From positions 1 to 30,419 of IMG/VR virus record IMGVR_UViG_3300036045_000050: 30,419 nt of DNA; one strand, written 5' to 3'. Under the pieces are notes generated by a model, which saw only the letters and a program-made list of their open reading frames with translations, did no database searches and was not told the origin of the DNA. This DNA is from a virus. Both the position numbers and the translations under genes were made by a program. Positions 6,000-30,402 of the stretch are shown here, in pieces. Within the stretch, counting starts at the first letter, position 1. Every line of letters begins with the position of its first letter.

Positions 6000-6838
6000 G
6001 CCTTCACCAGCTCCCCGTTGAACAGGAACTCCTCGCCCAGCTCGGCCTTTATCAGGCGCTGCTTGACGCCGGCCTCGTTCAGCATGTGGCGGCCCAGCGC
6101 CACGCTCGCGGCCCAGTCGTCGCGGGACGCGTGCAGGGGGTGGTCGTGGCCCACCACCTCCTTGACGCCCGCCTCGATGATCGCCCTGGCGCAGTCGGCG
6201 CAGGCGTACCAGGCGACGTACAGCGTGGCCCCGTGTGTCGGGTGGCCGGCGCGCGCGGCTTGGTAGATCACCTTCCGCTCGGCGTGCTCGACGTAGCTGT
6301 ACTTGAGCGGCCGCTTCCACCGCTCGTCGCTCGTCGTCACCCCTTGCGGGAAGCTGTTACAGCCCAGCCCGATGATGCCGCTATTGGCCCCCACCAGCAC
6401 CGCCCCGTTCTGGGTGCTGGTGTCGGGCGACTTCTGGGCCATGCGGTAGGCCATGCGCAGGAGATCGATGTCATCCAGCACGGTCACCCCCCTGTCGTCC
6501 AGCTCGGGCGGCAGCTGGCCACGTTTGATCCTCTCCTCGTAGGTCATGATCGCGAAGGCGTTCCACGCCACCGCCGCCATGTGGTCTTCGACCCGGTCGC
6601 CCTCCAGGTACTGGAAGGCGTGGCGGAGGAGGCTGGCCATGACCCGCATGAACGGGATGCCCCGCTCCCAGTTATGCTCGCCGTACTTCTCCGCCCCCCT
6701 GGCGTACAGCTCGGCCAGGCGCTTCAGCGCGTCTACGGGCAGCAGCTCGTAGCGCGGCTTGCCATCCTGCACGTCCCTCCTGGCGCCCGTCGCGAAGTCT
6801 TCGCGCAGGCCGGAGTCTTTTGTCACGAACTCGCTCAT
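5996..6838 (-). CDS. Fusion: DUF5664 dATP/dGTP diphosphohydrolase-like domain plus dCMP deaminase
   Basis: 280 residues from ATG 6838. Residues about 22-108 match the DUF5664 (MazG-like, all-helical) domain: GKPRYELLPVDALKRLAELY, GAEKYGEHNWERG, then SLLRHAFQYLEGDRVEDH and AAVAWNAFAIM. Databases name this domain dATP/dGTP diphosphohydrolase. Residues about 122-265 are a deoxycytidylate deaminase: NGAVLVG, the zinc and proton-shuttle motif H185-A-E187, and the second zinc motif C213-A-D-C216. The usual PC before the first Cys is AC here. Such enzymes would reshape deoxynucleotide pools for phage DNA synthesis. The gene overlaps the virion-type gene upstream by one base, so a metabolic enzyme sits at the end of the structural transcript. 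Domain calls are strong; substrate specificity is inferred. Confidence 0.85.
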   Translation of the reverse strand: MSEFVTKDSGLREDFATGARRDVQDGKPRYELLPVDALKRLAELYARGAEKYGEHNWERGIPFMRVMASLLRHAFQYLEGDRVEDHMAAVAWNAFAIMTYEERIKRGQLPPELDDRGVTVLDDIDLLRMAYRMAQKSPDTSTQNGAVLVGANSGIIGLGCNSFPQGVTTSDERWKRPLKYSYVEHAERKVIYQAARAGHPTHGATLYVAWYACADCARAIIEAGVKEVVGHDHPLHASRDDWAASVALGRHMLNEAGVKQRLIKAELGEEFLFNGELVKA

Positions 6839-9800
6839 CAGCCCCCCACCCTCACTGGCCTTTGCGACGCCTGCCGCTCACGCTGCTGCAACAGGCGCTG
6901 GAGCTGGGCCGCCTCCAGCTCGTCCGGCGTGAGCGTCCCCCAAAGCTCCGGCCGGACGTACAGGCTCTCGAACTTGCCCACCGCCGGCAGGCCCCGGAGC
7001 ACGCTCTTGATGTGCTCACGCTGGGCGATGTTCCGGTACTTGGGGATGTCCACGTCGGTCACCCTGGCGCCCGTGAGCAGGTTGAGCGGGACGCCATAGA
7101 GGTTCGTCCACTTGTCCGGGTCGGTGACCGTCCGCACGGTGCTGCCGGCGCGGGCCAACGGCGAGTTGGCGATCAGGTGGTCCAGCAGCTGGTTGCCGGT
7201 CATGGAGTACAGATCGCCCAGCTCGCGGCCGGAGAAGAACTGCCGGTCGGAGGCGTATTCGAGCGGCCCCTTGATGAGCGGGTTCAGCTGGCCCAGCAAG
7301 CCCATGAGCGTCTGCCGGGGCGTGCCCTTGATCATCTCGAACGCGGCCTCCGCCGGGGTGTCCACCTTTGTCAGGTAGCGCTGCCGCCCCTCCGGCGTCA
7401 TCTCGCCGATCGGCACCGCCAGCCCCTCGCCCATGTACGCCGGCAGGAACGTGCCCGGCTGCTGGCGGGCGTTGAGGGCCGCCTTGGCCGACACGCCGGC
7501 CAGGCCGCCGGGGTTGGTCGCCAGCTGGTTGAGCACCGCCGGGATGTTGCCTCTCTGGAAAGAATAAAAAGGGACTAGCCGCTTCATCCACGATTGCTCG
7601 AACGGCGTCAAGGACGACGGCGCGTAGTTATACTGCGTACGCAGGACGCGCGCGGCCGCCTCCGCCGGCGTGTAGCCCTCCTCCAGGCTCTTGATGAAGA
7701 GCGGCAGCCGGTTGACGCCCTCGACCACCTCGCCCATCGCGCGGCCGCCGGCGACCGGGGCGAACTTGTCGACGCTGCTGTTGACCCCCTGAATATTGAG
7801 CGCCTGGAGAGGGTTGAGGCTGGCGTCGCCTTCCAGGCCCAGGTACTTACTGGCGGCCCCCCGGACCGTCGCCGGCTGCCGGCCGGGGATCGTCGCAAGC
7901 ACGTCGTCCATCGCGCGCGGCAGCTCGACACGCCCGCCGGCCGCCCCGACGATGTCGCGCGCGTGGCCGCCCGGGTGGCCGCTCGCCCCGTAGGCCGCGT
8001 AGAGCCGCGCCACCTCGTCGGTGGCCTCCCTCGCCGTCAGGTTGCGCCCGGCGAAGATGGGCAGGTTTTCCAGGCCCTCGTAAGCCTCGCCGGCCAGTAT
8101 CCGTTTGGCGCCTGGCACATGGCCCAGCACGCCCGCGCCGGCCTCGCCGACGTTGGCCAGCTGGCCGCTCGTCAGGTTGCGCACCTGGAAGCCGGGGAAC
8201 GGGGCGGTGACGTAGGTCTTGAAGAGGTTCGTGAACCAGTCGTAGGCGCGCAGGAAAGGGTGGGCCGCTTCGGGGCTGCTGAAGGGGCGCATGTACCGGC
8301 CGATCTCGGCCATCGACTCCGGGCCGACGTAAAGGTCGGCCAGCGACGTGACCGGCCGCGCCGGCCCGAGCGCCTGCTGGGCCTTGTTGTAGCCGGCCAG
8401 GGCCATCGCCTCGCTCGCCGCGTTGGCCTCGCTCACACGGCCGCTCATCAGGCCGGCCTTTTGGAGGGCCGACGTCAACGGCGCGGCCCCTTCCGGCAGG
8501 GCGCCCGCGCCCCGCTCGAACGCCGTCTTGGCCAGCAGCTGGTGGGCCGCGTCGGCCTTGAACTGGAGGTCGATCGCTCGCTGGTGGTAGCCCATGAGGT
8601 CCGCGATCGGGTCGTGGCCGAACGCGCTCAGCGCCTTGTCCGTCCCGGCCCCCTGCCGGTACTCCGGCCCCAGGCCGTCCAGCCAGTCCACCAACGCCCG
8701 CGCCTGTTTATTCTGCCGCTTCGCCAGCTCGGCCGTCGTCGCCGCCAGCTGGCTGGCGTCGATCTCGCCCCTCGCCAGCATCGCCTGGGCGACCGCCGCC
8801 GGGTCCGACAGGTAGTTCTCCCGGATGTGCGCGGCACGCTCCATGGGCGTGCCATTATACGCCAGGGCGTCCCTGGACATCCGGTTGACGCCAGCCCGGC
8901 CCTCGTTGAAGCCCAGCAGGATTTCCTCGCGGCCGGTCATCAGTCGCGGGTCGGTCGCCTTCAACGCCGCCGTCGATTCGCCCGCGCCAGGCACGCGCTG
9001 GGCCGGCGTCAGCTGGCGCGGCAGGTAGCCGCCGCCGCTTACCGTGTACGGGTCGCGGAAGTCGCCCACGTCCACGCCACGCTCGACGAGGCCCTGCCGC
9101 CGGGCGGCCAGGTCACCTTGCAGCTCCCCCACCAGCTCCCTCGCCCGCGCGTTGACCGGCGTCGTGTACCCTTCGACGGCGCGGGCGAGGTCGTCGCCCT
9201 CCAGGCCCAGCCGCTTCAGCTCGTCGGTCTGGGTGAGCAGGCGGAAGTTGGCCGCCCCTTGCGCTTCCTTCAGCGCCTTGTCGCCCGACAGCATGATTTC
9301 CTGGCCCAGCTCGCTGGTCGACCCCTTGACCCGAGAGTCCAGCAGCGCGCGGGCGTGGCGGCCGAGCCACCGGGCGGCACCGGGCAGGTACTCCATCGCC
9401 TTCGGGGCGCCCAGAGTGAGCGTGTTGTACAGGTAGCTGCCGCCGTAGGGCAGCTTGTCCAGGTAGCGGTGGGCGCCGGCGACGGCCCGGCCCGCGCGCC
9501 CGGCCGCGTCGAGGGCCGCCAGGCCGGACGCGCCCTCGCCGATGTTCGCCTGCCACCCGGTGAACGGCACCTTAACGCCGAACAGGCCGCCGAGCGGGGC
9601 GTCGAGCATGCCGGCCAGCTGGGCCGAGCCGCCGGCCGCCGTCTCGGCCGCCTGCTGCAAGCCCGGCTCGGCCGCCAGCACCGACCGCAAGTTGCCGCCA
9701 ACCCTCGCGCTCGCCCCCTTCGGCGCTCGGCCGATCTTCTGCGCCACCTGCCCAGCCTTACTCAAGGCCCCCGCCCCGAACGTCAGGTACATCGACGGGT

Positions 9801-10203
9801 CCAGGGCCATCTCCAGGGCCAGCCCGCCGGCGAAGTTCCCCCAGTTGTCGTCCTGGCCGATCGCCCCCCAGTTGCGCAGCAGGTCGCGCCCCGAGACGCG
9901 GTCCTCCTCTTTGGTGATCCCCGCCAGGTCGCTGCCGGGCAGGACGCTGAGCAGCTCACGCGGCTTGCCGCCCAGGAGGCCGCGCACGGCCCGCCCGCCC
10001 AGCGTCTTCTCCAGCACGCTGCCGACGTAGCCCAGCCCGCCCAGGCCGGCGCCGGAGATGCGCGCGAGCATCGACTCCTCCCGCTCGGGCGTGAGCGGCG
10101 GCAGCTCCGGCTTCGGCTGGCCGAGCAGGGGCTGCTGAGCCTGGCCGAAGGCGAGGCGCTGCAAGGCGCCGGCGGGGTCCATGAAGTCGTCGTAGGTCCA
10201 CAT
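6838..10203 (-). CDS. Very large virion-type protein (putative internal/ejection protein)
   Basis: 1121 residues from ATG 10203 (a GTG directly before it is the alternative), with GAGGAGG upstream. Residues about 56-145 carry a module shared with three other proteins in the window: LEKTLGGRAVRGLLGGKP, LPGSDL, VSGRDLL and GLALEMALDPSMY. The rest is helical and Ala/Gly-rich. FPGFQVRNLTSG lies near residue 667, and TPFEQSWMKRLVPFYSFQR near 865-885; these recall large polyvalent or virion-associated phage proteins. No enzymatic motif was recognised. The gene sits at the end of the structural block, like the long ejected internal proteins of podoviruses; that role is inference. A locally AT-rich patch at 7560-7575 encodes the VPFYSFQ segment. 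Confidence 0.7.
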   Translation of the reverse strand: MWTYDDFMDPAGALQRLAFGQAQQPLLGQPKPELPPLTPEREESMLARISGAGLGGLGYVGSVLEKTLGGRAVRGLLGGKPRELLSVLPGSDLAGITKEEDRVSGRDLLRNWGAIGQDDNWGNFAGGLALEMALDPSMYLTFGAGALSKAGQVAQKIGRAPKGASARVGGNLRSVLAAEPGLQQAAETAAGGSAQLAGMLDAPLGGLFGVKVPFTGWQANIGEGASGLAALDAAGRAGRAVAGAHRYLDKLPYGGSYLYNTLTLGAPKAMEYLPGAARWLGRHARALLDSRVKGSTSELGQEIMLSGDKALKEAQGAANFRLLTQTDELKRLGLEGDDLARAVEGYTTPVNARARELVGELQGDLAARRQGLVERGVDVGDFRDPYTVSGGGYLPRQLTPAQRVPGAGESTAALKATDPRLMTGREEILLGFNEGRAGVNRMSRDALAYNGTPMERAAHIRENYLSDPAAVAQAMLARGEIDASQLAATTAELAKRQNKQARALVDWLDGLGPEYRQGAGTDKALSAFGHDPIADLMGYHQRAIDLQFKADAAHQLLAKTAFERGAGALPEGAAPLTSALQKAGLMSGRVSEANAASEAMALAGYNKAQQALGPARPVTSLADLYVGPESMAEIGRYMRPFSSPEAAHPFLRAYDWFTNLFKTYVTAPFPGFQVRNLTSGQLANVGEAGAGVLGHVPGAKRILAGEAYEGLENLPIFAGRNLTAREATDEVARLYAAYGASGHPGGHARDIVGAAGGRVELPRAMDDVLATIPGRQPATVRGAASKYLGLEGDASLNPLQALNIQGVNSSVDKFAPVAGGRAMGEVVEGVNRLPLFIKSLEEGYTPAEAAARVLRTQYNYAPSSLTPFEQSWMKRLVPFYSFQRGNIPAVLNQLATNPGGLAGVSAKAALNARQQPGTFLPAYMGEGLAVPIGEMTPEGRQRYLTKVDTPAEAAFEMIKGTPRQTLMGLLGQLNPLIKGPLEYASDRQFFSGRELGDLYSMTGNQLLDHLIANSPLARAGSTVRTVTDPDKWTNLYGVPLNLLTGARVTDVDIPKYRNIAQREHIKSVLRGLPAVGKFESLYVRPELWGTLTPDELEAAQLQRLLQQRERQASQRPVRVGG

Positions 10204-10592
10204 CACCCCGCCTCCTCGCCTAGCATCCGGCTGTGATAGTTCAACATCAGCAGGGCCGCTTCACGAGCGTCGCCGCTCAGCTTAGGCCACACCGAGCACA
10301 GATGCTCGAGGCGCTGGTAAGCGGCCTCTTCATTCCCGCTCGCGGCCGCCGTGCGCCACCTGAGCAACACCGCCAGCTCGCCGTCCGGGCGGAACCACTC
10401 GCCACGAACACGGAGGTGCGACAGTGCCGTGTGGAGCCATCGCTCGACGGCCATGCCCCCCGGCAGACAGGTGAGGAGGGTAAGCTTCTCGTGGGCGCCC
10501 GTCTGGAGGGTGGCAAGCCTCGCGTCTACGGGGTTCTCCGTGTAGCCGATCTTGACCGGCCCGCCCTCGCCGGCCTGGATGAAGTAGATCAA
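10203..10592 (-). CDS. GIY-YIG nuclease-like protein (MUG113/T5orf172 type)
   Basis: 129 residues from TTG 10592, the first start in the frame, overlapping the upstream TGA (TTGA). The N-terminal 75 residues follow the GIY-YIG plan: IYFIQAGEGGPVKIGYT places Y3-F-I5 and K14-I-G16 at the two diagnostic strands, R25 follows in DARLATLQTG, and E50 in AVERWLHTAL occupies the metal-binding position, followed by GEWFRPDGE. This is the spacing of the T5orf172/MUG113 branch. The C-terminal 50 residues are helical and specific to this protein. It sits between two virion-type genes that share a module, so it may be a free-standing mobile nuclease inserted in the operon. Its stop overlaps the next gene start. 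Confidence 0.75.
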   Translation of the reverse strand: MIYFIQAGEGGPVKIGYTENPVDARLATLQTGAHEKLTLLTCLPGGMAVERWLHTALSHLRVRGEWFRPDGELAVLLRWRTAAASGNEEAAYQRLEHLCSVWPKLSGDAREAALLMLNYHSRMLGEEAG

Positions 10593-13039: not shown

Positions 13040-13408
13040 TCACTCCTTCGCCAGCTTGAACGTCCCGTCGGCCGCCTCCAGCTTGCCCGGCTTCAGCGTG
13101 AAACGGTAGGTGAACCAGAAGCCGCGCAGGCCGTCGGCAGCCACCGTCCGCTCCCTGATCACCAGCTCGTCGCCCTTCAGCGACCACTCGCCCTCGTAGC
13201 GGAGCACACCCTCCGGGTCCGCCCGCTCGGCGAAATAGCCCCCGCAATCGAGCATCAGCGTCTGCCAGGGCTGCCTGTTCCAGTAGGCCACCCAGGCGCC
13301 CGCGACCGGCGGGCGCTTCTTCTCCTTGGCCCTGGGCACGGGGGCCGCGAGCAGCGAGCAGGCGGCCACGAGCCAGGCCATGACAAGCGCCGACGTAGTC
13401 TTCCTCAA
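13040..13408 (-). CDS. Secreted or lipoprotein of planctomycete type
   Basis: 122 residues from TTG 13408, preceded by GGAGGTGATC, which matches the whole anti-Shine-Dalgarno region. The start is a typical signal: MRKTTS, a hydrophobic core ALVMAWLVAACSLLAAPVP, then RAKEKK. VAAC could be a lipobox; LLAAPVP is the alternative signal-peptidase I site and is a leader ending very common in Gemmataceae proteins. The mature part resembles small planctomycete beta-barrel proteins (GAWVAYWNRQP, LRYEGEWSLKGDELVIRE). Its stop is three bases before the next virion gene. It may be a host-derived envelope protein, for example for superinfection exclusion; that is speculation from context. Confidence 0.7.
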   Translation of the reverse strand: MRKTTSALVMAWLVAACSLLAAPVPRAKEKKRPPVAGAWVAYWNRQPWQTLMLDCGGYFAERADPEGVLRYEGEWSLKGDELVIRERTVAADGLRGFWFTYRFTLKPGKLEAADGTFKLAKE

Positions 13409-15087
13409 CGATCACCTCCTCCGGCGGCTTCCAAGGCGCGGAGCAAGTCGCCAAGCGCCGACGCCTCGCCTCTCGACCTGACCCGCGACTCGCGGCTGAA
13501 GAACGGGAGCGGGCTAGACTCGCCCGAGATCCACCGGCTGACCGCACCGAAAGGGGCCTTGCTCGTGGCGACCACCCTCCCGCCCGGCATCACCACCCTG
13601 GTCGTCCTATCGTTATCGGTCTTATCGTAGGTCAGCCCGCCTAAGGTGACCCGCCTGACGGGACGGTCGTAGCTGTCCTCCGCCTGGAGCAGGTCAGCCG
13701 CCCGCCGGCGCCACGCGCCAAGGATCGCCTCACGGATCTGCTGGGGCGTCTTGCCGCCGCCGCCCCTGGCCAGCATGGCGACGACCGCCGGGTCGGACGC
13801 CAGCGACGGGTTTTGCGACAGCGCCTCCGCCAGCACGTTCACGTTGAACGTGCCGGGCTTGCCGCCGGCGGCGGCAGGCGCGAAGCCAAGGCGCTGGCTC
13901 AACGCTTCAATATCCCGCGCACGCTTCAAGGCTTCGGCGGCCGGCCCGCCAGGCGCCCCGGCCGCCGGCCCGCCAGGCGCCCCGGCCGCCGGCCCGCCAG
14001 GCGCCCCGGCGGCCGGCTGCTCCGGTTGCACCAAAGAGCCGTCCGGCCTCCGCTCCATCACAAGTTGCGGGGCCGGCGTGTCGACGCGCACGGGGGCCGC
14101 CCCCTGGCCGCGAGCCGCGTCGTACAGGTTGTCCCCTGCCGCGATCGCCTCATTCGTCGCCTGGCCCATCGCGATCGCGGTGTTCACGTCTTTGCCCTGC
14201 TCCAGGGCGCGGGCGACGGCCTGGTTGACGGCGGTGCGGTTGCTCGCCTTGCGGGCCAGGGACGCCTGAAGCTGGGCCATCTCCCTGTCGTGCTGGCGGC
14301 CAAGGTCTCCCTGCCTGGCCTGGTGCTCCCGCGCCAGCCGCGCCTCGCCGGCCTGAAGCTCCCGCTCGGCCGGCTTCGTGACCTTCTCGCCGTACTCCTG
14401 GACGCCGGCCGCGCCGCGAGCGGTGTCGCCCTGGAAGATGCCCTGAGCCGCCTGCTGCGCCTGGCCCATCAGCGACGCCATCAGCTGCTGGTCGGGCGCC
14501 TGGCCCCCTTGCGGGCCGTGCGGCCCGTAGACCGCCCGGTTGTACAGCTGGGGCATGGTCCGCCGGACGAAGGCCAGCTGGTCCGCCGCGTTGTCGCTGC
14601 CGGCAAGGGCGCGATCATAAGCGGCCTCGCCGACGGCGAACCTGTCGCCCACCTGTCGCACCCCGGCGCCCCAGCGAACGCCGCCGACGGGGTCGTTCGT
14701 GGCCGCTTCGCGGGCGTCGGCCGCCTCCGCCTCCGCCCGGCTCCCGAAGACGCCGGCCGCCTGGCGGCCCCGCGTCAGCGTCCGCCACGACTCGTTCTGC
14801 CGCGCCTCCTTCGCCTCCTCCTCGCGGGCGAAGTCTTCCAGCATGCGGTAGCCCGCTTCAGCGACGGGGTCGGCCGGCCGCCCGCCCTGCGCCGGCGCGC
14901 CCGACCAGCTGCCGCCGGCGGCCAGGTCGCGCTTCTCGTCCTCGCTCAGCTGGTCCGGCGCCACCTCGCGGCCCTGCTCATCCTTCACCTTGCCGCCGGC
15001 GTCGATGCGCACCCGGCGCGCGCGGCCCTGGACCCTGACGGGTGGCCTGGCGGGCTGCCGGCCGTCGGCTTGCGGGTCGTAGTACAC
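13405..15087 (-). CDS. Large coiled-coil, Ala/Gln-rich virion-type protein
   Basis: 560 residues from GTG 15087, with AAGGTGATC in front. The N-terminal 60 residues are basic then acidic. Residues about 215-300 are strongly charged and heptad-like (AERELQAGEARLAREHQARQ, then MAQLQASLARK), suggesting a coiled coil. Residues about 358-385 hold three APGGPAAG units encoded by a 24-bp tandem repeat. The C-terminal 100 residues include a more ordered strand-rich segment (RRVTLGGLTYDKTDNDRTT). No family was recognised. Its TGA overlaps the TTG start of the secreted-protein gene. It is probably a structural or ejected protein, judged only from neighbours. Confidence 0.6.
   Translation of the reverse strand: MYYDPQADGRQPARPPVRVQGRARRVRIDAGGKVKDEQGREVAPDQLSEDEKRDLAAGGSWSGAPAQGGRPADPVAEAGYRMLEDFAREEEAKEARQNESWRTLTRGRQAAGVFGSRAEAEAADAREAATNDPVGGVRWGAGVRQVGDRFAVGEAAYDRALAGSDNAADQLAFVRRTMPQLYNRAVYGPHGPQGGQAPDQQLMASLMGQAQQAAQGIFQGDTARGAAGVQEYGEKVTKPAERELQAGEARLAREHQARQGDLGRQHDREMAQLQASLARKASNRTAVNQAVARALEQGKDVNTAIAMGQATNEAIAAGDNLYDAARGQGAAPVRVDTPAPQLVMERRPDGSLVQPEQPAAGAPGGPAAGAPGGPAAGAPGGPAAEALKRARDIEALSQRLGFAPAAAGGKPGTFNVNVLAEALSQNPSLASDPAVVAMLARGGGGKTPQQIREAILGAWRRRAADLLQAEDSYDRPVRRVTLGGLTYDKTDNDRTTRVVMPGGRVVATSKAPFGAVSRWISGESSPLPFFSRESRVRSRGEASALGDLLRALEAAGGGDR
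13941..14012 (-). repeat. 24-bp tandem repeat, three units
   Basis: Three units at 13941-13964, 13965-13988 and 13989-14012. The first two are identical, and the third differs only near its end. Being a multiple of three, they add the eight-residue unit AAGAPGGP to the coiled-coil protein, so copy-number change would only lengthen a flexible linker. Confidence 0.9.
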
Positions 15088-15944: not shown

Positions 15945-16553
15945 TCATGCCGCGTGAAAACTTTTGTAAACTCTTGGCGCCTTCAGCTTTGATACATCAT
16001 GGCCGCGATCTTTGAGACTCTGCCACCAGAGTGAATACTTAAACTCTGCCAGGTCTTCATCCGCTCTCTGTCGCGCCAGCTCATTTCTCACAGCTTCCTT
16101 GTGCTTACGTTCATTCTGGTCTCGATACTGCTTAGCAGTCCAAGCTGCCATCTCGTCGCGATAGATCTCATCGTCGGTTTTCTGCTTGACTGGCGCCGGC
16201 CGAAAGCCTTGGTAGCCCTGGTCCAACGCCTGGCTCAAAGCACCCCTTCCGACAGGCTGGTCCCGATAACTCTCCAGCTGCTGGTCAGTAGCGAACTCCG
16301 GCCGGCCGCCCCAGCCGGACTGGAACGGCCCCTGCTGGTAGCCGCCCGGCGACTGGCCGCCCCAGCCGGACTGGAACGGCCCCTGCTGGTAGCCGCCCGG
16401 CGACTGGCCGCCCCAGCCGGACTGGAACGGCCCCTGCTGCTCCGGCATCTGCGAGCGGAAGGCGTTGCCCAGCGCGGACCCGTAAGGGGCGCCGGCCGGC
16501 CTGGCGCGCAGGCCGGCGTAGTTGACGTTGCTGGTGATCCTGGTCTGCGTCAT
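15945..16553 (-). CDS. Chimeric protein with 17-residue Gly/Gln repeats
   Basis: 202 residues from ATG 16553. Residues about 40-85 hold three copies of a 17-residue unit (QQGPFQSGWGGQSPGGY), encoded by a nearly identical 51-bp tandem repeat. Residues about 125-202 are charged and helical, ending WWQSLKDRGHDVSKLKAP. The 5' half has the usual GC-rich codons, whereas the 3' half (15945 to about 16250) uses many A/T-ending codons, so the two halves have different histories. The gene is the first after an internal promoter at 16585-16613. No family was recognised; the repeats suggest a flexible structural element. Confidence 0.6.
   Translation of the reverse strand: MTQTRITSNVNYAGLRARPAGAPYGSALGNAFRSQMPEQQGPFQSGWGGQSPGGYQQGPFQSGWGGQSPGGYQQGPFQSGWGGRPEFATDQQLESYRDQPVGRGALSQALDQGYQGFRPAPVKQKTDDEIYRDEMAAWTAKQYRDQNERKHKEAVRNELARQRADEDLAEFKYSLWWQSLKDRGHDVSKLKAPRVYKSFHAA
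16306..16439 (-). repeat. 51-bp tandem repeat, 2.6 copies
   Basis: Units lie at 16306-16356, 16357-16407 and a partial third at 16408-16439. They are identical to each other over the compared length. The period is in frame and encodes a 17-residue Gly/Gln/Pro/Trp unit. Perfect identity points to recent amplification or active copy-number change. Confidence 0.95.
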
Positions 16554-18150: not shown

Positions 18151-18407
18151 TACTTCTCCCAGCTCACGACCCAGCCGTTCTGGCGGTCGGACCGCATCGG
18201 GTCGGTGTTCTCCTTGTACGACGGCACCACCTTGTAGCCGAACTCCGCCTTCAGTATCTCGGCCTGGATCTCGTTCAGCTCGGCCATGGTGAATATGACC
18301 TTGAGCGCCCCGCCCTCCGCCGCCTTGCGGATGACATCGAAGACCTTCGGCAGGTCGCCCCGCGCCTTCACCTTGGCCGCCAGCCTCCTCGCCTCGCCAG
18401 CCATCAT
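18150..18407 (-). CDS. Small hypothetical protein
   Basis: 85 residues from ATG 18407, which overlaps the upstream stop; a second ATG directly follows it. It is a helix-strand-helix protein: a basic N-terminus (EARRLAAKVKARGD), a strand ALKVIFTM, a helix LNEIQAEILKAEFG and a short C-terminal strand WVVSWEK. It ends in TAA, whereas most neighbours use TGA. No family was recognised. Confidence 0.55.
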   Translation of the reverse strand: MMAGEARRLAAKVKARGDLPKVFDVIRKAAEGGALKVIFTMAELNEIQAEILKAEFGYKVVPSYKENTDPMRSDRQNGWVVSWEK

Positions 18408-20437
18408 CAGCCACGCCCCCCCGTCGCCCCGTCCAGCGTCACCTGGTAGATGACGGCCGGGTCGATGTTTGTCACGCCCTCGAACTCCCAGCTGAACAGT
18501 CGCTGCCCGTCGATGTACAGCTCCTTGTGCCCGTCCATGCGGCGCTGCATCCAGCCCCCCGTCGCGGACAGGTCGCCCGTCATGGCCGCGTCGCCCCGCT
18601 CCGTGCCAAGGCTGTTCAGCTCGGCGCCGGCGTAGGTCGCCTGCCACACCACCGGGTCGCCCGAGCGGTCGGCGTAGAAGTACGCGAGCAGGGCCTGCTC
18701 GCTGGGCGACGGCTCGAACAGAACCTCGATCCGGCGCGGCCCCTCCACCTCCGCCGGCGCCCACCGGAACCAGCCCGTGCGGTAGCGCCACCTGACCCCG
18801 CCCACCTGGTAGGTGCTCGTCCCGTCCGGCTCGACCGACCAGGGGCGGTCGACGTCCAGCCGGGCCGCGCCGGCCTGGACGACCACGCGCCATTGCCCGC
18901 GCCCCCTCCCGGTGACGATGGCGACCGGCGCGCCCGCGAGGTCGTCGCCGAAGCGCCCCGCCGAGTCCGACAGGCTGGTCGGCGTGGCGGAGGTGACCAG
19001 CCCGCGCACCTTGCCGCGACGCCCGTCCACCATGTCCAGGGAGCCGGGGCCGAGCAGGTAGACCTGCCCGCCAGGCCCGCCCAGGAACACCCGCCGCTCG
19101 CCGTCGAGGAGGCCGACGCAGCTGGCGCCGACCGGGACGGGATACTCCTCCACCCACCACCGCCTCGTGGCGATGTCCATCGCCAGCGCGTGGCGCGGCA
19201 CGCCCGTGCCGGCCAGGGTGACGAACCACCGCACCACCTGGAGGCCGGGGTCGTAGACGCAGTGCCACCACTTCGCGGACTCGAAGCGGAGGCGGTAGCG
19301 CGCCCTGGCGTTGGTGGGGTCGAAAAGATCCTGGATTGGCGCCGACACCGGTTCGACCTGGCGTGAGCCAGAGAACTGGTAGATCCCCGCCTCGTCGAGC
19401 AGGTAGGCCGCCTCGTCCACGACCGCGAAGCACCGCCCGTTGACGCAGCCCCGGTTGCAGGACAAAAACACGTAGCCGTCGTCAAGGGGGTCTTGCTGGA
19501 ACGTCAGACGGTAGACGTGGCGCCGCTCCAGGATGTACAGGAAGCTGCCCATCGGCATGAGGCCCACCACGTCGTCGCCGTCCTCCTGGACGGACAGCGC
19601 GTTGGTGGGCGGCCACGCTTCGGGCAGCCCAGGCTCGCTGAAGGCCACCAGCCGCCTTTGCGCGAGCGGCGGCCTGATGCCGTACGGCTGGTACGCGGCG
19701 GTGGGCGAGGCGTACTCCTCCAGGAGTGTGATGGTCTGAGAAACGGCATCGACGGAGTCGATCTCATAGGCTCTGTCAGCCCCGGAGACCCACAAGAACC
19801 GGCCGGCCAGCGTGCTTGGCCACTCCGTGCCGACGCCCGTGACGGTCTTGCTACCCAGCGTGACGACCACCGAGCCGTCGCGGTAGACCTCCTCGCCCGC
19901 CAGGAACATCCGGTCCAGGTGCGCCGCGATCACCGACTTGTCGCTGGGCGGCGGGTCGTTGCGGTTGGCGATCGGCAGCCCCTCGCTGTCGTAAAGGGCT
20001 ACGGCCTCGTTCGCCTGGAGGAAGGTGTCCGTGTTCGTGCTGCTAAAGCTGGTGCTCGTCAGGTCGTCCGTCTCGACGTCGACATAGAACACCTGCGCCT
20101 GGCCCGCCGTGTTGCGCAAGATCTGCCGCAACGTCACCTTGCTCTCGCTCGGCACCGGGACGTTGGCGTAGGCCACCTCGCCCCTGGCGGTGATGGTCAC
20201 CGGCCCAGCCAACGGCGACAGGTTGCTGACGTTGCCGAAGCGGTCCACGAAGCGTGTGTAGGCGTAGTAGGTGCCCGTGATACTACCCGAGCCTGCGCCG
20301 GAGAGAGTTAGCGCCGAGCTGGGCGCGACCAAGCCGGCCACGTCCATCTGGTCGGCCAGGCCGTCCCAGACGATTGGCGGGTCGATGCCGTTGACGGCGA
20401 AGAGCAGGCCGTCGGCGCTCTGCGCGAAGTGCTCCAC
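18407..20437 (-). CDS. Beta-propeller-like tail or stabilisation protein
   Basis: 676 residues from GTG 20437. Repeated strands and phrases such as DRMFLAGEEVY, RRLVAFSEPGLPEAWPPTN, VQEDGDDVVGLMPMGSFLYI and RRHVYRLTFQ resemble the propeller-like tail proteins of podoviruses (compare the P22 gp10 stabilisation family). Residues about 185-245 hold a domain (VVVTLGSKTVTGVGTEWPS) also seen in the connector-like protein at 23626-24789. The C-terminal third is strand-rich with an Asp/Gly-rich end. The protein begins abruptly in the fold (MEHFAQSADGLLFAVNGIDP) without the usual N-terminal phrase, which appears instead in the small gene at 23299-23478. Function in tail assembly is inferred. Confidence 0.65.
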   Translation of the reverse strand: MEHFAQSADGLLFAVNGIDPPIVWDGLADQMDVAGLVAPSSALTLSGAGSGSITGTYYAYTRFVDRFGNVSNLSPLAGPVTITARGEVAYANVPVPSESKVTLRQILRNTAGQAQVFYVDVETDDLTSTSFSSTNTDTFLQANEAVALYDSEGLPIANRNDPPPSDKSVIAAHLDRMFLAGEEVYRDGSVVVTLGSKTVTGVGTEWPSTLAGRFLWVSGADRAYEIDSVDAVSQTITLLEEYASPTAAYQPYGIRPPLAQRRLVAFSEPGLPEAWPPTNALSVQEDGDDVVGLMPMGSFLYILERRHVYRLTFQQDPLDDGYVFLSCNRGCVNGRCFAVVDEAAYLLDEAGIYQFSGSRQVEPVSAPIQDLFDPTNARARYRLRFESAKWWHCVYDPGLQVVRWFVTLAGTGVPRHALAMDIATRRWWVEEYPVPVGASCVGLLDGERRVFLGGPGGQVYLLGPGSLDMVDGRRGKVRGLVTSATPTSLSDSAGRFGDDLAGAPVAIVTGRGRGQWRVVVQAGAARLDVDRPWSVEPDGTSTYQVGGVRWRYRTGWFRWAPAEVEGPRRIEVLFEPSPSEQALLAYFYADRSGDPVVWQATYAGAELNSLGTERGDAAMTGDLSATGGWMQRRMDGHKELYIDGQRLFSWEFEGVTNIDPAVIYQVTLDGATGGRG

Positions 20438-23625: not shown

Positions 23626-24789
23626 TCATCCCTCCGATGCGTTGAAAGGCATGTCCGCGAACCGCACCGGCCAGAAGCTCGGCGACCCGGCCCGCTCCTC
23701 TTTCATGTTCCTCGCGTCCGCCTCCCTCGCCATCAGCAGCTCACGCTGGGCGGCCACCTCCAGCTCGGCGCGGTCACGCTTGTTCCTCGCGTGGCCCGTC
23801 TCCAGCTCCGCCCGCCTCAAGAGGGCCGTCAGCATGCTCCCGACGTGGATGTCCACCGGGTCGCTGATCACGTACTTCACGCCGTTGGCCACCACCGACC
23901 AGCCGCTATCGACCGTCAGCGACGTGGCGCTGGCCACCGCCGTCACCAGCCGCTCGTCCGCCGCCGGGGCGTTGCCCCACCGCGCCGTCGGCACCGTCGA
24001 GGCGTCTCCCACCCGGATCACCGACCCGACCATCGACGAGGCGAAGGCCGTCCCCGTGCCCGTCACCGCCGTGCTGCCGACGCCCACCGACACCTTACCA
24101 GAGATTTCCGACTCGACCCGCAAGGGGCGCGGGTGGCGCTTGTAGATGTAGTCCACCGCGTACACCTGGTCGGGCGGCGGGTAGAAGGCGATCGACAGCA
24201 CGTTCTGGTAATTCGTCTCGCCCAGCACCGTGTAGGTGGAAGGGATCGACGTGCCCCGGTACACACGCTGCCGGGCCAGCCAGCTGCTCGGGTGCTCCCA
24301 GCCCAGGAGCCTGGCGTGCGTCGCGATGAACAGCTCGCCCATCGACTGGAAGTTCGTTGGCAACGGGAACGTGTCACGGTAGATCGTCCAGGCGTTCGTG
24401 CTGGCGACGTCGGCGCCAGGGTTCGAGTTGGTGCTGAGCGTGATCTGAGTGTCCGACTTGCGCTCCGCAACTTCATAAGTGACGTCATTGATCATCAGCG
24501 TGCCCTGCGCCGCCCAGCTGGGCCAGGTGCCCGAAGCCAGGGCGACGAGGCGCTCGAACATGCCGCCGGTGTGGTCGTAGCTCACCGTGCCCGTCGCGTA
24601 GCTGGCGACCGTGTTCAGCCGCCCGCGCGTCAGGTAGTACGACCAGCCGTGCGCGTTGGCCGTTGCGCGGAGCGCCGACAGCGAGGCGCGCTTGGCGTCG
24701 CGCCGCGCCTCGCCGGACGGGTTGGCCCCCATCCAGTCGGTCAGGTGCTCGACCAGGTCGCTCCAGGTGATCAGCTCGACGCGGGCCAT
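23626..24789 (-). CDS. Head-tail connector or tail protein candidate
   Basis: 387 residues from ATG 24789, with AAGGAG six bases upstream. The first 60 residues are helical with WSYYLTRGRLNTVASY. The next 120 are strand-rich (TGTVSYDHTGG, LMINDVTYEVAERKSD, TIYRDTFPLPTNFQSMGE), a pattern seen in phage adaptor proteins that join portal to tail. Residues about 235-305 hold a domain with TAVTGTGTAFASSMVG, also present in the propeller-like protein. The C-terminus is helical and charged (ELEVAAQRELLMAREADAR). The role is inferred from pattern and place in the block. Confidence 0.6.
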   Translation of the reverse strand: MARVELITWSDLVEHLTDWMGANPSGEARRDAKRASLSALRATANAHGWSYYLTRGRLNTVASYATGTVSYDHTGGMFERLVALASGTWPSWAAQGTLMINDVTYEVAERKSDTQITLSTNSNPGADVASTNAWTIYRDTFPLPTNFQSMGELFIATHARLLGWEHPSSWLARQRVYRGTSIPSTYTVLGETNYQNVLSIAFYPPPDQVYAVDYIYKRHPRPLRVESEISGKVSVGVGSTAVTGTGTAFASSMVGSVIRVGDASTVPTARWGNAPAADERLVTAVASATSLTVDSGWSVVANGVKYVISDPVDIHVGSMLTALLRRAELETGHARNKRDRAELEVAAQRELLMAREADARNMKEERAGSPSFWPVRFADMPFNASEG

Positions 24790-24799
24790 CTGTAGCTCC

Positions 24800-25921
24800 T
24801 TAGCGGCATTCGTCGATGAAGGGCGGCAGGTCGCCCGATTCGTCCGGGGCGGCCGCCGGCGCCTGGCTGCTCTCCTCAACCAGGGCCGGCAGGCCGGCCC
24901 CGTTCTCGTCCAAGGCGGCCGGGCGATACGGGCAGTCGATCGTCTGTCTCGCCAGGGCCGGGTAGTCGTCCGGCGTGCGGAACGCCCTCGCCTCCACCAG
25001 CAGCTGGCCGAAGCCGGCTCCTTCGGCCACGCGCCTGATCGGCACCCCGCCGGCCTGATCGACCGGCGCGAACTGGGGGAACCGCCTTGGCGTCCGGTAC
25101 GCCCTGCCGACCAGCGCCTCGACCGGAGTGGCCCTGTCGCCGGCCACCACCCGCACCGGCAGGTTGCCCGGCGCGTCGGCCGCCGGCCGCTTTCGCGGCG
25201 TCCTCCAGCTGGAGGGCCGGAACGCGGCCAAGTCGCCCAGCCAGCCACCCGCCCGCCGCCGGCCCGGCGCCGAACCGGCCGCGTCGGGCGCCTGCCACGA
25301 GAGCGGCGTGCGCCTCACGGAGGCGAAGTTCGTCAGGAGGTCCGTGTCCCGGTCCACCAGCTTGCGCCGGGGCGGCACGTTGCCAGCCTGGCCGGCCGCC
25401 GGCCACCTCCGGGGCGTGCGCCAGCTGGAGGACCGGAACAGGGCGAAGGCGCCGTGCAAGTCCCTGGAGAACCGCCTCTCCGGCACGCCGCCCGCCTCGT
25501 TCGCTGGCACCGGCTGGAGCTTGTCCGGCGGGTGTCGCCACGCCCTGGCCAGCAGCAGCGACTCCGCCTCGCCGCGAGGCCGCACGGCCCTCCTCTCCGG
25601 CACGCCGCCCTCGCCAGGAGGGGCGGCCCAGGAGAGCGGCGTCCTCCGCGTGACGACGCTGTACACGCGGAGGAACGTGTCGATGTCGCACAGCTGGCGC
25701 CGCCTTGGCACGCCCCCTGCCGACGGCGCCGGCGGCATGCGCGCCGGCGTGCGCCTCACGCGCGCGCGAGGCTCCTCCATCGCCGCGTCGGCGCGCCAGC
25801 CGTCGGCCGCGAAGCGGCGCCGCGCCGGCGTGTTGTCCCCCGCCGGCGGGTCCAGCCCAGCCAGGATGAGCGGGCGGTGCGGCTGCTTGCGCGTGAGCCG
25901 CGTTCGCGCTGGCAGGGACAA
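24800..25921 (-). CDS. Novel Arg/Pro-rich 36-residue repeat protein
   Basis: 373 residues from TTG 25921. GGAGGG lies seven bases upstream, and a TGA lies two codons before that start in the same frame, so the start is well placed. From about residue 55 to 350 the protein is a tandem array: the phrase x-[WRYF]-R-[TH]-P recurs with Pro at 59, 95, 131, 170, 206, 242, 278 and 317, spacing 36, 36, 39, 36, 36, 36, 39. A second phrase GG-[VL]-P-x-R-R recurs with Pro at 32, 72, 108, 147, 183, 219, 255 and 294. Each unit ends with a helix-like Leu-rich segment (for example DLLTNFASV). The array is very rich in Arg, Pro and Ala. The C-terminal 20 residues are acidic. No known repeat family matches by eye. 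Confidence 0.65.
   Translation of the reverse strand: MSLPARTRLTRKQPHRPLILAGLDPPAGDNTPARRRFAADGWRADAAMEEPRARVRRTPARMPPAPSAGGVPRRRQLCDIDTFLRVYSVVTRRTPLSWAAPPGEGGVPERRAVRPRGEAESLLLARAWRHPPDKLQPVPANEAGGVPERRFSRDLHGAFALFRSSSWRTPRRWPAAGQAGNVPPRRKLVDRDTDLLTNFASVRRTPLSWQAPDAAGSAPGRRRAGGWLGDLAAFRPSSWRTPRKRPAADAPGNLPVRVVAGDRATPVEALVGRAYRTPRRFPQFAPVDQAGGVPIRRVAEGAGFGQLLVEARAFRTPDDYPALARQTIDCPYRPAALDENGAGLPALVEESSQAPAAAPDESGDLPPFIDECR
24872..25759 (-). repeat. Degenerate 108/117-bp repeat array inside the Arg/Pro-rich gene
   Basis: Eight diverged in-frame units of 36 or 39 codons encode the [WRYF]-R-[TH]-P ... GG-V-P-x-R-R pattern of the protein at 24800-25921. DNA identity between units is low, so this is an old protein-level duplication rather than a recent DNA repeat. 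Confidence 0.7.
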
Positions 25922-25942
25922 GGCTCAGCCCTCCGGCCGTCA

Positions 25943-26389
25943 TCACTCCTCGCCGGCCACCCGCGTCACCGAGTTCACGTCGGCGCCGGCCGTGACGCGG
26001 ACGCCCAGCCGGTCGCCGCCGCCGATGGCGACGCCCCGGCCGAACGGCGCCTGCCACGTGTAGCCCGTCTGGGGGTGGACGTACTCGCGCATCAGCACGT
26101 CGCCCGCCGTCGGCTCCGCCGTCGCCGTGTGCTGGAACGTCGTCTGGAGAGTCTCGTCCCAGTCGTCGGGGTCTTTGACGCCCGTCAGCGAGGACATCGT
26201 GCCGGCCGTCGTCTGGCGGAGGATCTCCACCAGGATTGGCGCCGCCGTGTTCGACGTGCCCTGGAAGCTGATGGAAATCTCGTCGATCACCGCCTTGTGG
26301 TTGATCGCCGCGACGACCTGGAGCAGCGTCTTCGCGCTCGTGCCCGTCGCCACCGCCGCCGTCGTCGCCTTGAACCGGTTGCCAGACAT
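25943..26389 (-). CDS. Small structural-type protein
   Basis: 148 residues from ATG 26389, with GGAGGGG upstream. It is strand-rich: MSGNRFKATTAAVATGTSA, KTLLQVVAAINHKAVIDEIS, ISFQGTS, AAPILVEILRQ, a central YVHPQTGYTWQAPFG and a final RLGVRVTAGADVNSVTRV. The plan resembles phage minor virion or decoration proteins of about 150 residues. Its TGA lies 21 bases before the repeat-protein start, a gap filled by that gene's ribosome-binding site. Confidence 0.6.
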   Translation of the reverse strand: MSGNRFKATTAAVATGTSAKTLLQVVAAINHKAVIDEISISFQGTSNTAAPILVEILRQTTAGTMSSLTGVKDPDDWDETLQTTFQHTATAEPTAGDVLMREYVHPQTGYTWQAPFGRGVAIGGGDRLGVRVTAGADVNSVTRVAGEE

Positions 26390-26451: not shown

Positions 26452-26583
26452 GAAATACTCAAAGGTCGGCTCGGCCCAGCCCGCCACATGCCGCCGCCGC
26501 GCGACCGGCCCGCCCGGCACCTCGCCGCCGGCCGCCGCCAACGCCGAGATCGGCGCGAAGCTCAGCCCGTTGAACGAGTGCAT
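26446..26583 (-). CDS. Small protein with a GG-VP-RRR phrase, 45 aa
   Basis: 45 residues from ATG 26583, ending TAA at 26446-26448. The centre contains AGGEVPGGPVARRRHV, close to the GG-V-P-x-R-R phrase of the repeat protein two genes downstream; the end is aromatic (PTFEYFW). It overlaps the sulfotransferase 3' end by 22 bp. No family was recognised. It may be a single-unit relative of the repeat protein, or the resemblance may be chance in Gly/Arg-rich sequence. Confidence 0.45.
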   Translation of the reverse strand: MHSFNGLSFAPISALAAAGGEVPGGPVARRRHVAGWAEPTFEYFW

Positions 26584-27422
26584 GACTCACCCCCCGTCAC
26601 CGAACCCAGCCGCGACAGCGCCTGGATGTCCCCGAACTGGCCGTCGATCCACGCCGCCAGGCCCGCCGGCAGCGACGAGCGCCAGCCGTCGTCCTCGCGA
26701 TGCACCACCTCCGGCCCCACCGCGTGGAGCGGCAGCCCCCACACGTCGATGTCCCGCTCCGGGCTGGGGTGCCTCACCGCCTTGTGGTTCACCTCCGCCG
26801 GCTTCAGACCCAGCGCCAGGAACACCTGTAGGCACGCCAGCGCCGGCATGGCCGTCAGGTGCGAGTACGGCACGATCACCAGACGCCCCGCCAGCCCCCT
26901 GTCGAAGGCGTCAAGCAGGCGCCGCGCCGCCAGCCCGACCGCCCCGCCGTCGCCCAGCAGCTGCTCCGCCCGCCCACGCATCGACTGGCCCGCCAGGTAC
27001 TGATCCCCCTGCCCGTGCGGCGCCGTGAGCGGGCTGCCGGCGCGAAGCCGCTCGAAGCTGGCGAACACCGACCGCACGTCCCTGACCGTGCAGACGACCC
27101 GCACCTCCCGGCCCAGCACGTCCTCCATCAGCTCGATGTACGCCGGCCACGCCCTGTTCTTGTCCAGGACCGCACGCCCCGCCGCCAGCTCCGCCTCGTA
27201 GAAGCCCCGCACCAGGCCCCGGATGGCCGAGCGCACGCGCGGCGCCACCGACCCCAGCCCCTGCGCCCGGAACCCGTCCAACGCCGGCCACGAGTTGCGG
27301 GCCGACGCCACCAGCTCCACCAGGTCGTTGGTGGCCGTGACGTGCAGGTCCGGGTGCTGGCTCAACAGCGAGGCCAGCAGGGTCGAGCCGGATCGCGGAA
27401 GCCCCGCCAGGAAGTGGATCAC
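26562..27422 (-). CDS. Sulfotransferase-family protein
   Basis: 286 residues from GTG 27422, overlapping the upstream stop. It has the PAPS-binding signature at the very N-terminus: FLAGLPRSGSTLLASLLSQH with P9-R-S-G-S-T14, the 3'-phosphate motif TVRDVRSVFASFERL with R114 and S118, and the intervening VLDKNRAWPAYIELM. This is the cytosolic/Stf0-like P-loop sulfotransferase fold, which moves a sulfuryl group from PAPS to an alcohol or amine. Length is normal for the family. The gene lies directly behind the tail-fibre gene and ahead of small tail-type genes, so its acceptor could be a virion protein or a host surface glycan; the acceptor cannot be read from sequence. Confidence 0.85.
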   Translation of the reverse strand: MIHFLAGLPRSGSTLLASLLSQHPDLHVTATNDLVELVASARNSWPALDGFRAQGLGSVAPRVRSAIRGLVRGFYEAELAAGRAVLDKNRAWPAYIELMEDVLGREVRVVCTVRDVRSVFASFERLRAGSPLTAPHGQGDQYLAGQSMRGRAEQLLGDGGAVGLAARRLLDAFDRGLAGRLVIVPYSHLTAMPALACLQVFLALGLKPAEVNHKAVRHPSPERDIDVWGLPLHAVGPEVVHREDDGWRSSLPAGLAAWIDGQFGDIQALSRLGSVTGGESCTRSTG

Positions 27423-28675
27423 CCGGTCACCTCCACCGTTCTAACGAAGGCCACCCAGTTGATCGTCTTCGACCCCTCGCCCGTCACCGTGATCACCAGC
27501 GCTCCGTTGGTCGAGTCCGCCGTCACCGCCGCCGCCCACGCCGCCGTGTCCTCCGCGATCACCGTCTCCGTCACCGACCCCACCAGCGCCGTCGTGCCGG
27601 CGGTGGCGTTCCGGTCGATACAGCCAACGTACCGGTACGCCGCCGACTCGTCGTTGGCGTCCGCCCGCCGCGCGACCAGCAGGATCTCGAAGGCGTACGT
27701 CGTGTCGTTCGCCAGCGTGATCCGCTCCGAGCTGCCGTTGAGGAACATCTCGGCCGGGGTGGCGTTCGTCGTCTGGCGCCGGACGACGTACTGCGAGGTC
27801 TGCGCGTCGCCGTTGGCCGCGAACCGCCCCGACGCGTGCGCCAGCTGCGCCCGCTTACTCGCCGTCGCCTGGTGGCCCGCCGGGACGCCCGAGTACAGGC
27901 CGGAGGCCGTGTTGGCCGCCCCGGCGCCGACGAACGACGAGCCGCCGGAGGCCGTGTTGGAGGCGCCAGCCACCACCGCCGCGCGGGCCGCCAGGGCGCT
28001 GTTGCTCGAGCCGCCGCCGACGAAGCTGTACGTGCTCCCCCCCGCCGTGTTGCCGTAGCCGCCCACCACCGACGCGTAGTTCTGTGACGCCGTGTTGGCC
28101 CGGCCGCCGCCGACGACCGTGTGAACCGCCGACGCGATGTTGTTCCGCCCGGCGCCGATGAACGCGCCGGTGTTGCTGGCCCGGCTGTTCAAGCCCGAGA
28201 CGACAGCTGAGTAGTTGCCGCTCGCCACCTGGTTTGCGGCCGTGCGCGAGGACTGGGCGTCGAAGGCGCCGGTGCCCCGCGCGTCGCCGACCGTCGCCAC
28301 CAGGGCGTTCTCACGCTCGCGCCTGACGGCGTGCGTCGTCGGCAGCGCGATCAGGGGCAGGCCGTAGTGGGCCGGCGCCACCACGAACACGTCCTTGGTC
28401 CCGGCGCTCAGGTTCACAACGCTGCCGCCGTTGGAGCTGGCCAGGACGGTCGTGCGCGACAGCGTGTCCGTCGCCGCGTCGGTGACCGTCCCGATCCCCA
28501 CCTCCCACTCGTTGGCGGTGAGGTGGGAGATGCAGTAGTAGCAGGTGTTGGCGTTGCCGACGCCGGCCACGAAGGAGATGGCCCCGTCCGGCACGGCCGC
28601 CTCCAGGTTGAGGGTGCCCGTGCCGGAGGTCGTCGTCTGCTGCTTGACGCGGTCGGCCGCGATCGGGCCTGGCAT
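27419..28675 (-). CDS. Tail fibre with left-handed beta-roll-like repeats
   Basis: 418 residues from ATG 28675. The first 100 residues match a common phage fibre adaptor: ADRVKQQTTTSGTGTLNLEA, then ANEWEVGIGTV, LSRTTVLASSNGG and LSAGTKDVFVVAPA. Residues about 145-285 are a run of 14-16-residue units of the form V-V-[GS]-G-x-x-N-x-A (SVVGGYGNTAGG, SFVGGGSSNSALAA, AVVAGASNTASGG), the pattern of trimeric YadA-type beta-roll heads. The C-terminal 110 residues are a strand-rich domain (SERITLANDTTYAFEILLVA) that could bind the receptor or trimerise. Its TGA overlaps the sulfotransferase start. Confidence 0.8.
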   Translation of the reverse strand: MPGPIAADRVKQQTTTSGTGTLNLEAAVPDGAISFVAGVGNANTCYYCISHLTANEWEVGIGTVTDAATDTLSRTTVLASSNGGSVVNLSAGTKDVFVVAPAHYGLPLIALPTTHAVRRERENALVATVGDARGTGAFDAQSSRTAANQVASGNYSAVVSGLNSRASNTGAFIGAGRNNIASAVHTVVGGGRANTASQNYASVVGGYGNTAGGSTYSFVGGGSSNSALAARAAVVAGASNTASGGSSFVGAGAANTASGLYSGVPAGHQATASKRAQLAHASGRFAANGDAQTSQYVVRRQTTNATPAEMFLNGSSERITLANDTTYAFEILLVARRADANDESAAYRYVGCIDRNATAGTTALVGSVTETVIAEDTAAWAAAVTADSTNGALVITVTGEGSKTINWVAFVRTVEVTG

Positions 28676-29198: not shown

Positions 29199-29431
29199 GG
29201 CACGCCCCTTTTCTTGAGGCCGACCGCCGCCTCCGCGAACCGCCGCTCCGCCTCCGCCCTGGCCGCCGACGCCAGGGCCACACGCTCGCGCAGGCCGATG
29301 GCCTCCTCCCTGGCGCCCTCCAGCGCCAGCTCGGCGGAAGCCAGCAGCGCTCGCAGCGAGGACTCGGCCGCGACGGCAGCCTCCACCTCGCCGAGCAGTT
29401 TCGTCGCCGCCTCGTCCAGCTCCATCGTCAC
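29195..29431 (-). CDS. Small coiled-coil protein
   Basis: 78 residues if started at GTG 29431; ATG 29425, two codons later, has better spacing to GGAGGAGGGG and is as likely. Almost the whole protein is one amphipathic helix with heptad-like Leu/Ala (LGEVEAAVAAESSLRALLAS, then LRERVALASAARAEAERRF), ending in LKKRGVP. It is probably a coiled-coil assembly or scaffold-type protein. The stop overlaps the next ATG. Confidence 0.6.
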   Translation of the reverse strand: MTMELDEAATKLLGEVEAAVAAESSLRALLASAELALEGAREEAIGLRERVALASAARAEAERRFAEAAVGLKKRGVP

Positions 29432-30402
29432 CCCTCCTCCACGCCCTGGTTGAGCCGCCCGGCCACGCCAAGCCCCAGCCCGCCGGCCGCCAGCCCGCCG
29501 AGCGCGTGCGGCGCGTAGCCGGCCGCCTGGTACAGCCGCGCCGCGCCGGGCGACAGCTCCCGGAACGCGTCCGCGTAGACCCGCCGCACCCTTTGCTGGG
29601 CCGGGTCGAACGGGTTGTCGAACAGGAAGCGGGCCGCCCCGCGCAGCTGCTCCAGCAGCCCCTTCTTCTCCAGCGTCTGGGCCGCCAGCTCCTCCGCCAC
29701 CGCGCCCAGCCCCGACCGGAACGAAATCTCGCCGGGGGCCGTGCCCTGCTTCAGCCAGGCGGCCGGCCGGGCGACGGCCGGCAGGCCGGCCATGTCCCCC
29801 GTCTTCGCCGCCTGGTCGATCAGGCCGTGAACGTTCTCGTGGCGCCTGGTGGTCGCCGACGCGCCACGCCTGAGCCAGCCGGCGTTCAGCCCCGGCAGGT
29901 AACCGCCAGCCGCACCGGCCAGCTCAGGCAGCGTCGACAAGACCGCCAGCTGCTTCTGCTCCGACCGGCCGACCGGCGTGAACTCCGGCGCGCGGAGGGT
30001 GCCCCTGCCGGGCACGCCGGACGGCTCCACCTCCACGAAGCCGAACCCACGCCGCTTGTCCATCAGCCGGGCCGCGCGGCCCGGCGACGCCCCGGCGCCG
30101 GCGCCGAGAAGTCGGCCGGCCCCTTTGACCACGCCGTAGATGCTGAGCGGGTCCGCCAACGTCTCCGTCGCCAGCCCGCCCAGCCAGTTCGACCAGGTGT
30201 CCTCGTCACCGGCCAACCCGTACATGCGGTTGAGGTCGCGACCCGAGACCTTCCGCTCGGGGTCGAGCAGCCCCATCGACTCCGAGCCTGGCAGCAGGTT
30301 GTACAGCTGGTCGGGGCGCCCGGCGAGCAGGCCGCGAACGGCCGCGCCGGGGCGGCCGACCGTGTCGCCCACGAAGCCCAACGCATCGAGCAGGTAGCTC
30401 AT
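29428..30402 (-). CDS. Virion-type protein with shared module and HExxH motif
   Basis: 324 residues from ATG 30402, with GGGGGG upstream. Residues about 7-95 are the shared module: AAVRGLLAGRPDQLYNLLPG, KVSGRDLNRMYGLAGDEDTW and GGLATETLADPLSIYG, close to residues 56-145 of the 1121-residue protein. Residues 188-192 are H-E-N-V-H, the zinc-binding HExxH motif, in the helix-like context TTRRHENVHGLIDQ; AEELAAQTLE at about 236-245 could give the third ligand. The C-terminus has a Gly/Leu/Ala-rich hydrophobic segment (ALGGLAAGGLGLGVAG). It may be a virion-borne metallopeptidase or an inactive relative. The motif is seen; the activity is inferred. The gene is complete; its operon continues beyond the right edge. 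Confidence 0.65.
   Translation of the reverse strand: MSYLLDALGFVGDTVGRPGAAVRGLLAGRPDQLYNLLPGSESMGLLDPERKVSGRDLNRMYGLAGDEDTWSNWLGGLATETLADPLSIYGVVKGAGRLLGAGAGASPGRAARLMDKRRGFGFVEVEPSGVPGRGTLRAPEFTPVGRSEQKQLAVLSTLPELAGAAGGYLPGLNAGWLRRGASATTRRHENVHGLIDQAAKTGDMAGLPAVARPAAWLKQGTAPGEISFRSGLGAVAEELAAQTLEKKGLLEQLRGAARFLFDNPFDPAQQRVRRVYADAFRELSPGAARLYQAAGYAPHALGGLAAGGLGLGVAGRLNQGVEEG

Follow-up and report, generated by a model that had tools for sequence, protein, structure and literature searches.

An unnamed protein family was defined in the virion-building operon of uncultured phages. It comprises an Arg/Pro-repeat protein of an uncultured short-tailed phage (IMG/VR virus record IMGVR_UViG_3300036045_000050, positions 1 to 30,419; this whole stretch of 30,419 nt is here called the window) and its uncharacterised positional orthologues in four other phage lineages, all of which were found by synteny. 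As judged from the alignments, related phages share the conserved ends of the protein, while the repeats enclosed by these ends turn over very rapidly. The identification of the positional orthologues by synteny, the conserved ends and the common period of 16-19 residues are new, and no literature on a protein like this one was found. The family offers a test case for the role of fast-changing repeat proteins in short-tailed phages.

Reading frame and repeat architecture

The G+C content at codon positions 1, 2 and 3 of the repeat gene is 0.74, 0.63 and 0.93, respectively, and the excess at the third position spans the entire open reading frame and ends where the frame ends. Since this excess tracks the ORF 24800-25921, the 373-aa frame was taken as coding instead of a 537-aa ORF overlapping it. 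The possibility that the repeat is a wrong-frame artefact, given the 70% G+C of the DNA, was ruled out by the codon-position G+C and by the conserved ends. The protein consists of 15% arginine and 13% proline and has a pI of 11.3.

Eight [WRYF]R[TH]P motifs were located at residues 56, 92, 128, 167, 203, 239, 275 and 314, i.e. with spacings of 36, 36, 39, 36, 36, 36 and 39 residues, while composition shuffles of the protein contained on average 0.08 such motifs and at most 2 (2000 shuffles). The series is exactly that described in the initial annotation, the absolute residue numbers of which (59 to 317) were 3 too high. The second phrase claimed there, GG-V-P-x-R-R, was recovered as GxVPxRR-type phrases at seven positions (residues 69, 105, 144, 180, 216, 252 and 291), in register with the first motif. 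Self-similarity of the protein peaked at lags of 147, 111, 36 and 75 residues. The two units of 39 residues are offset by four units, and their 3 extra residues are placed between the R[TH]P and the GxVPxRR phrases.

Pairwise identity of the units reaches up to 47%. No tandem array across the gene was detected at the DNA level by Tandem Repeats Finder, and the conserved residues are encoded by mixed synonymous codons (for arginine CGC, AGG, CGA and CGG), which is in line with selection at the amino-acid level; pN/pS among the units is close to saturation and hence uninformative. The proposal that the units had diverged in their DNA under selection for the spacing agrees with the absent array and the mixed codons, but not with the orthologues, in which the 36/36/39 series is missing.

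Table 1. Coordinates in the window of the repeat gene, its parts and the neighbouring genes
Feature	Position	Strand	Remark
Arg/Pro-repeat protein CDS	24800..25921	-	373 aa, TTG start
Shine-Dalgarno-like GGAGGG	25929..25934	-	7 nt before the TTG of the repeat gene
N-terminal motif RLTRKQPHRP	25871..25900	-	residues 8-17; counterpart of [RK][RK]SRKQ[FQ] of the relatives
Repeat unit 1	25655..25762	-	36 aa
Repeat unit 2	25547..25654	-	36 aa
Repeat unit 3	25430..25546	-	39 aa
Repeat unit 4	25322..25429	-	36 aa
Repeat unit 5	25214..25321	-	36 aa
Repeat unit 6	25106..25213	-	36 aa
Repeat unit 7	24989..25105	-	39 aa
Repeat unit 8	24881..24988	-	degenerate, runs into the conserved C-terminus
Conserved acidic C-terminus	24803..24940	-	IDCPYRPAALDE...LPALVEES...DECR
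Beta-sandwich protein, RQTTAGTM family	25943..26389	-	148 aa; immediate upstream neighbour
Adaptor-like gene	23626..24789	-	about 388 aa; next gene downstream of the repeat gene in each of the five lineages
Fibre-like protein	27419..28675	-	same module
Sulfotransferase-like gene	26562..27422	-	same module
Podophage nozzle-like / 'phage stabilization' protein	18407..20437	-	

Positional orthologues and the common period

The window protein had no match in Pfam or PHROG, nor did any of the five orthologues in PHROG, and a profile built from the five retrieved no PDB sequence, including those of solved fibre shafts; this confirmed the earlier statement of no recognised family. As a direct query against viral contigs the protein found no relative. 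Its single match among isolated phages was judged to be due to chance. An HMM built from the window units and run on every ORF of the loci gave nothing above shuffled controls, and among 199 genomes from the phylum to which L090 (a Planctomycetota MAG) belongs, the orthologue profile had no match, an empty result of little weight in a search run without a positive control; to this extent the suggested profile search of phage and planctomycete proteins was realized. A nucleotide pattern for SRKQF[HQ] of the N-terminus, covering some of the codons only, had 61 matches in viral contigs, none of them in an Arg/Pro-repeat gene, and the divergence of the orthologue alignment was too great for a pattern scan.

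As in the window, an Arg/Pro-repeat gene directly precedes the 388-aa adaptor-like gene in L028, L004/L005, L006 and L096. The family is further marked by an N-terminal [RK]x[ST]RKQ motif (weakened to TKRTR in L096; in L006 a motif of this type, RKSRKQFHRP, is located internally), by an acidic C-terminus CPxRP...PAxVEES...DEC, which is looser in L006 and L096, and by the period, which exceeds shuffles in all five proteins. The window protein shares the gene position, the conserved termini and the Arg/Pro period with its orthologues, whereas the 36/36/39 doubled unit occurs in the window only and the window middle can hardly be aligned to theirs. When the window is compared to L028 and L004, the proteins encoded next to the repeat gene show 47-75% identity with very high z-scores, in contrast to the repeat middle, the scores of which are close to those of shuffles (z 3.6 and 0.9); between L028 and L004 the middle can still be aligned (z 16.1). 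Similarity search alone misses the family link because the repeats turn over almost completely between such well-conserved neighbours. From the sequences, re-amplification of the repeats in the window lineage appears to be the simplest reading, and replacement of the middle by recombination is an alternative one.

In order to analyse the period, spectra of Arg/Lys, Pro, hydrophobic and Gly positions were computed with 200 shuffles per protein. The best or near-best periods of the five proteins were 18.5 (window, beside 37.75), 18.75, 18.0, 17.25 and 16.25 residues, and each maximum exceeded every shuffle (0/200 each); no comparable peak was present in four other genes of the window. A joint motif search in the five proteins returned xPx-hydrophobic-xxG[KR]VxRR with a log-likelihood score of 435 compared to 318-354 in shuffles, and in the window this motif is spaced mostly by 16 and 20 residues. 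Since all five proteins show the period of 16-19 residues, the 36/39 unit, exact as it is in the window, is probably a doubled element of about 18 residues. Likewise, the 36/36/39 series looks like a lineage-specific re-amplification instead of a strictly kept length, because the orthologues keep the shorter period only. This suggests that the identity of the family is carried by its period and ends, and not by its sequence.

Near the starts of ORFs beside the 148-aa gene, the [RK]x[ST]RKQ motif was also found in L007/L033, L024, L034/L035 and L036. These apparent relatives have shorter repeat segments; in L024 and L033 the segment precedes a long C-terminal region of globular appearance, and the protein of L034 has about 75 aa in total. 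Arg/Pro-containing repeats like those of the window occur at the same locus in L080, L076, L090 and L059, with a significant period of about 17-18 in L059, L076 and L090. Unlike the window protein, these segments belong to proteins that also contain LamG (L080, L076) or other regions; they have no significant motif-profile link to it and are at most candidate homologues. In L055, L060 and L049 the 148-aa gene is followed, at the corresponding locus, by genes for different repeat proteins with a short period (16 or 20 residues).

Virion module and possible roles of the repeat protein

The order of genes along transcription in L028 is major capsid protein, terminase, 651-aa, 319-aa, 215-aa, fibre-like, sulfotransferase-like, 148-aa, repeat and 388-aa protein. 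The major capsid protein and the terminase were identified by PHROG matches, and the 651-aa protein is in portal position without a PHROG match. In the window, a 676-aa protein is similar to a protein annotated as phage stabilization protein in MW202462 and has a weak likeness to 8jov_A, a virion-associated phage protein. The 388-aa gene may be adaptor-like, as its profile aligned weakly (E 0.0014 in a single comparison, probability 17.5%) to a gene of MW202462 located between capsid and stabilization protein; an alignment-based search yielded ten relatives, and a pattern search with the single protein found nothing. The 148-aa protein has 61 relatives in viral contigs and 3 in genome contigs (2 Planctomycetota MAGs and 1 Gemmatimonadaceae MAG), and neither it nor the 388-aa protein matched isolated phages. 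It was predicted confidently as a beta-sandwich (pLDDT 92, pTM 0.85), the fold resembling uncharacterised phage proteins, e.g. one of podophage LIMEzero, with weak PDB matches. The placement among tail genes had been taken as a hint of a new fibre or scaffold; the virion/tail module, with its fibre-like, beta-sandwich, adaptor-like and nozzle-like genes, was recovered, but not the identity as fibre or scaffold.

The fibre-like protein shares an N-terminal module with L006, L041, L012 and others, after which GxNxA-type repeats resembling trimeric adhesin heads follow, with a sub-threshold Pfam match only. Between the fibre and 148-aa genes, as also in L028, a member of the sulfotransferase family (PF13469 above cut-off) is encoded.

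For the repeat protein, we tentatively favour a reading, given somewhat below even chances, as a virion-associated, extended multi-motif tether or stalk of the head-tail/fibre module of a podovirus-like phage. The protein would be an accessory of this module, consistent with the distant 388-aa relatives L072, L097 and L099, in which other genes occupy the place of the repeat gene, so that the latter is accessory. Its chain would be extended and mostly unfolded, carrying the Arg/Pro motif (roughly xPx-hydrophobic-xxG[KR]VxRR) every ~18 residues between the basic N-terminus and the acidic C-terminus. Both ends would probably dock on the virion, and the repeated motifs would act as a multivalent tether whose exact sequence and copy number are free to change quickly. 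Synteny with conserved ends in four lineages, the period, the fast middle, the disorder-like composition, at or near the boundary in the charge-hydropathy analysis, and the low pLDDT argue for this reading, as do the apparent relatives with the same N-terminal motif and locus, the repeat segments of which differ in length. Against it, the motif has recurring hydrophobic and aromatic positions, which could mean beta structure, and two orthologues are just on the folded side of the charge-hydropathy line.

The structure prediction proposed as a check was performed with AlphaFold2 as a monomer from five diverged sequences only; it gave no regular fold (mean pLDDT 39, pTM 0.14, zero strands), a result compatible with disorder or with an oligomeric fibre. 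The main rival, which we consider somewhat unlikely, is a trimeric or otherwise oligomeric fibre shaft resembling the triple-beta-spiral shafts of adenovirus/reovirus type, with a strand-turn formed by each ~18-residue element and folding restricted to the oligomeric state. The repeats of triple-beta-spiral shafts are likewise short, comparable in length, and carry hydrophobic and Gly/Pro positions, and the window protein resembles these shafts in its short regular period with alternating hydrophobic, Gly and Pro positions. Moreover, L055 and L060 place other repeat proteins with periods of 16 or 20 residues after the 148-aa gene, and LamG domains accompany the Arg/Pro repeats in L080 and L076. 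However, the motif spacing varies inside one protein (mostly 14-24 residues), strands were absent from the AlphaFold2 model, the family has no PDB sequence match, and, to our knowledge, a composition as rich in Arg and Pro is unusual for known fibre shafts, those of the triple-beta-spiral type being without it.

The arginine content and the basic pI could also point to a polyanion binder attached to packaged DNA or to an anionic cell-surface polymer. The net charge outside the C-terminus is +30 in the window and +19 to +23 in three orthologues, but about zero (+1) in the L096 orthologue, in which arginine motif and period are kept nevertheless, and this role is regarded as unlikely. A morphogenesis factor, i.e. 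a chaperone or scaffold that assists the assembly of adaptor or fibre and then leaves the particle, would fit the position directly 5' of the adaptor-like gene in 5/5 lineages and the absence beside the distant adaptor relatives; the occurrence of similar repeats elsewhere in one polypeptide with LamG domains favours a structural part instead, making such a factor improbable. A further, quite doubtful, reading is that the ~18-residue motif might serve as a molecular ruler, each copy binding one equivalent site on a symmetric virion part and one chain stapling several subunits, for which the adaptor ring, the tail or the 148-aa beta-sandwich protein may be partners. If true, a phage tail or head surface would be built with selection only on spacing and a few residues.

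Further repeats and shared segments in the window

In the virion region, a perfect 51-bp tandem repeat with 2.7 copies (16304-16439) lies in the gene 15945-16553 (-) and encodes repeats of 17 residues, GPFQSGWGGQSPGGYQQ, unlike the Arg/Pro repeat with its diverged units. A 24-bp tandem repeat with 3.5 copies at 96% (13935-14017) in the gene 13405-15087 (-) encodes AGAPGGPA-type repeats. Additionally, residues ~55-164 of a 1122-aa protein (6838-10206) match the same stretch of L004/L039 as a 324-aa protein (29428-30402 (-)), and therefore these two genes of the window share a segment.
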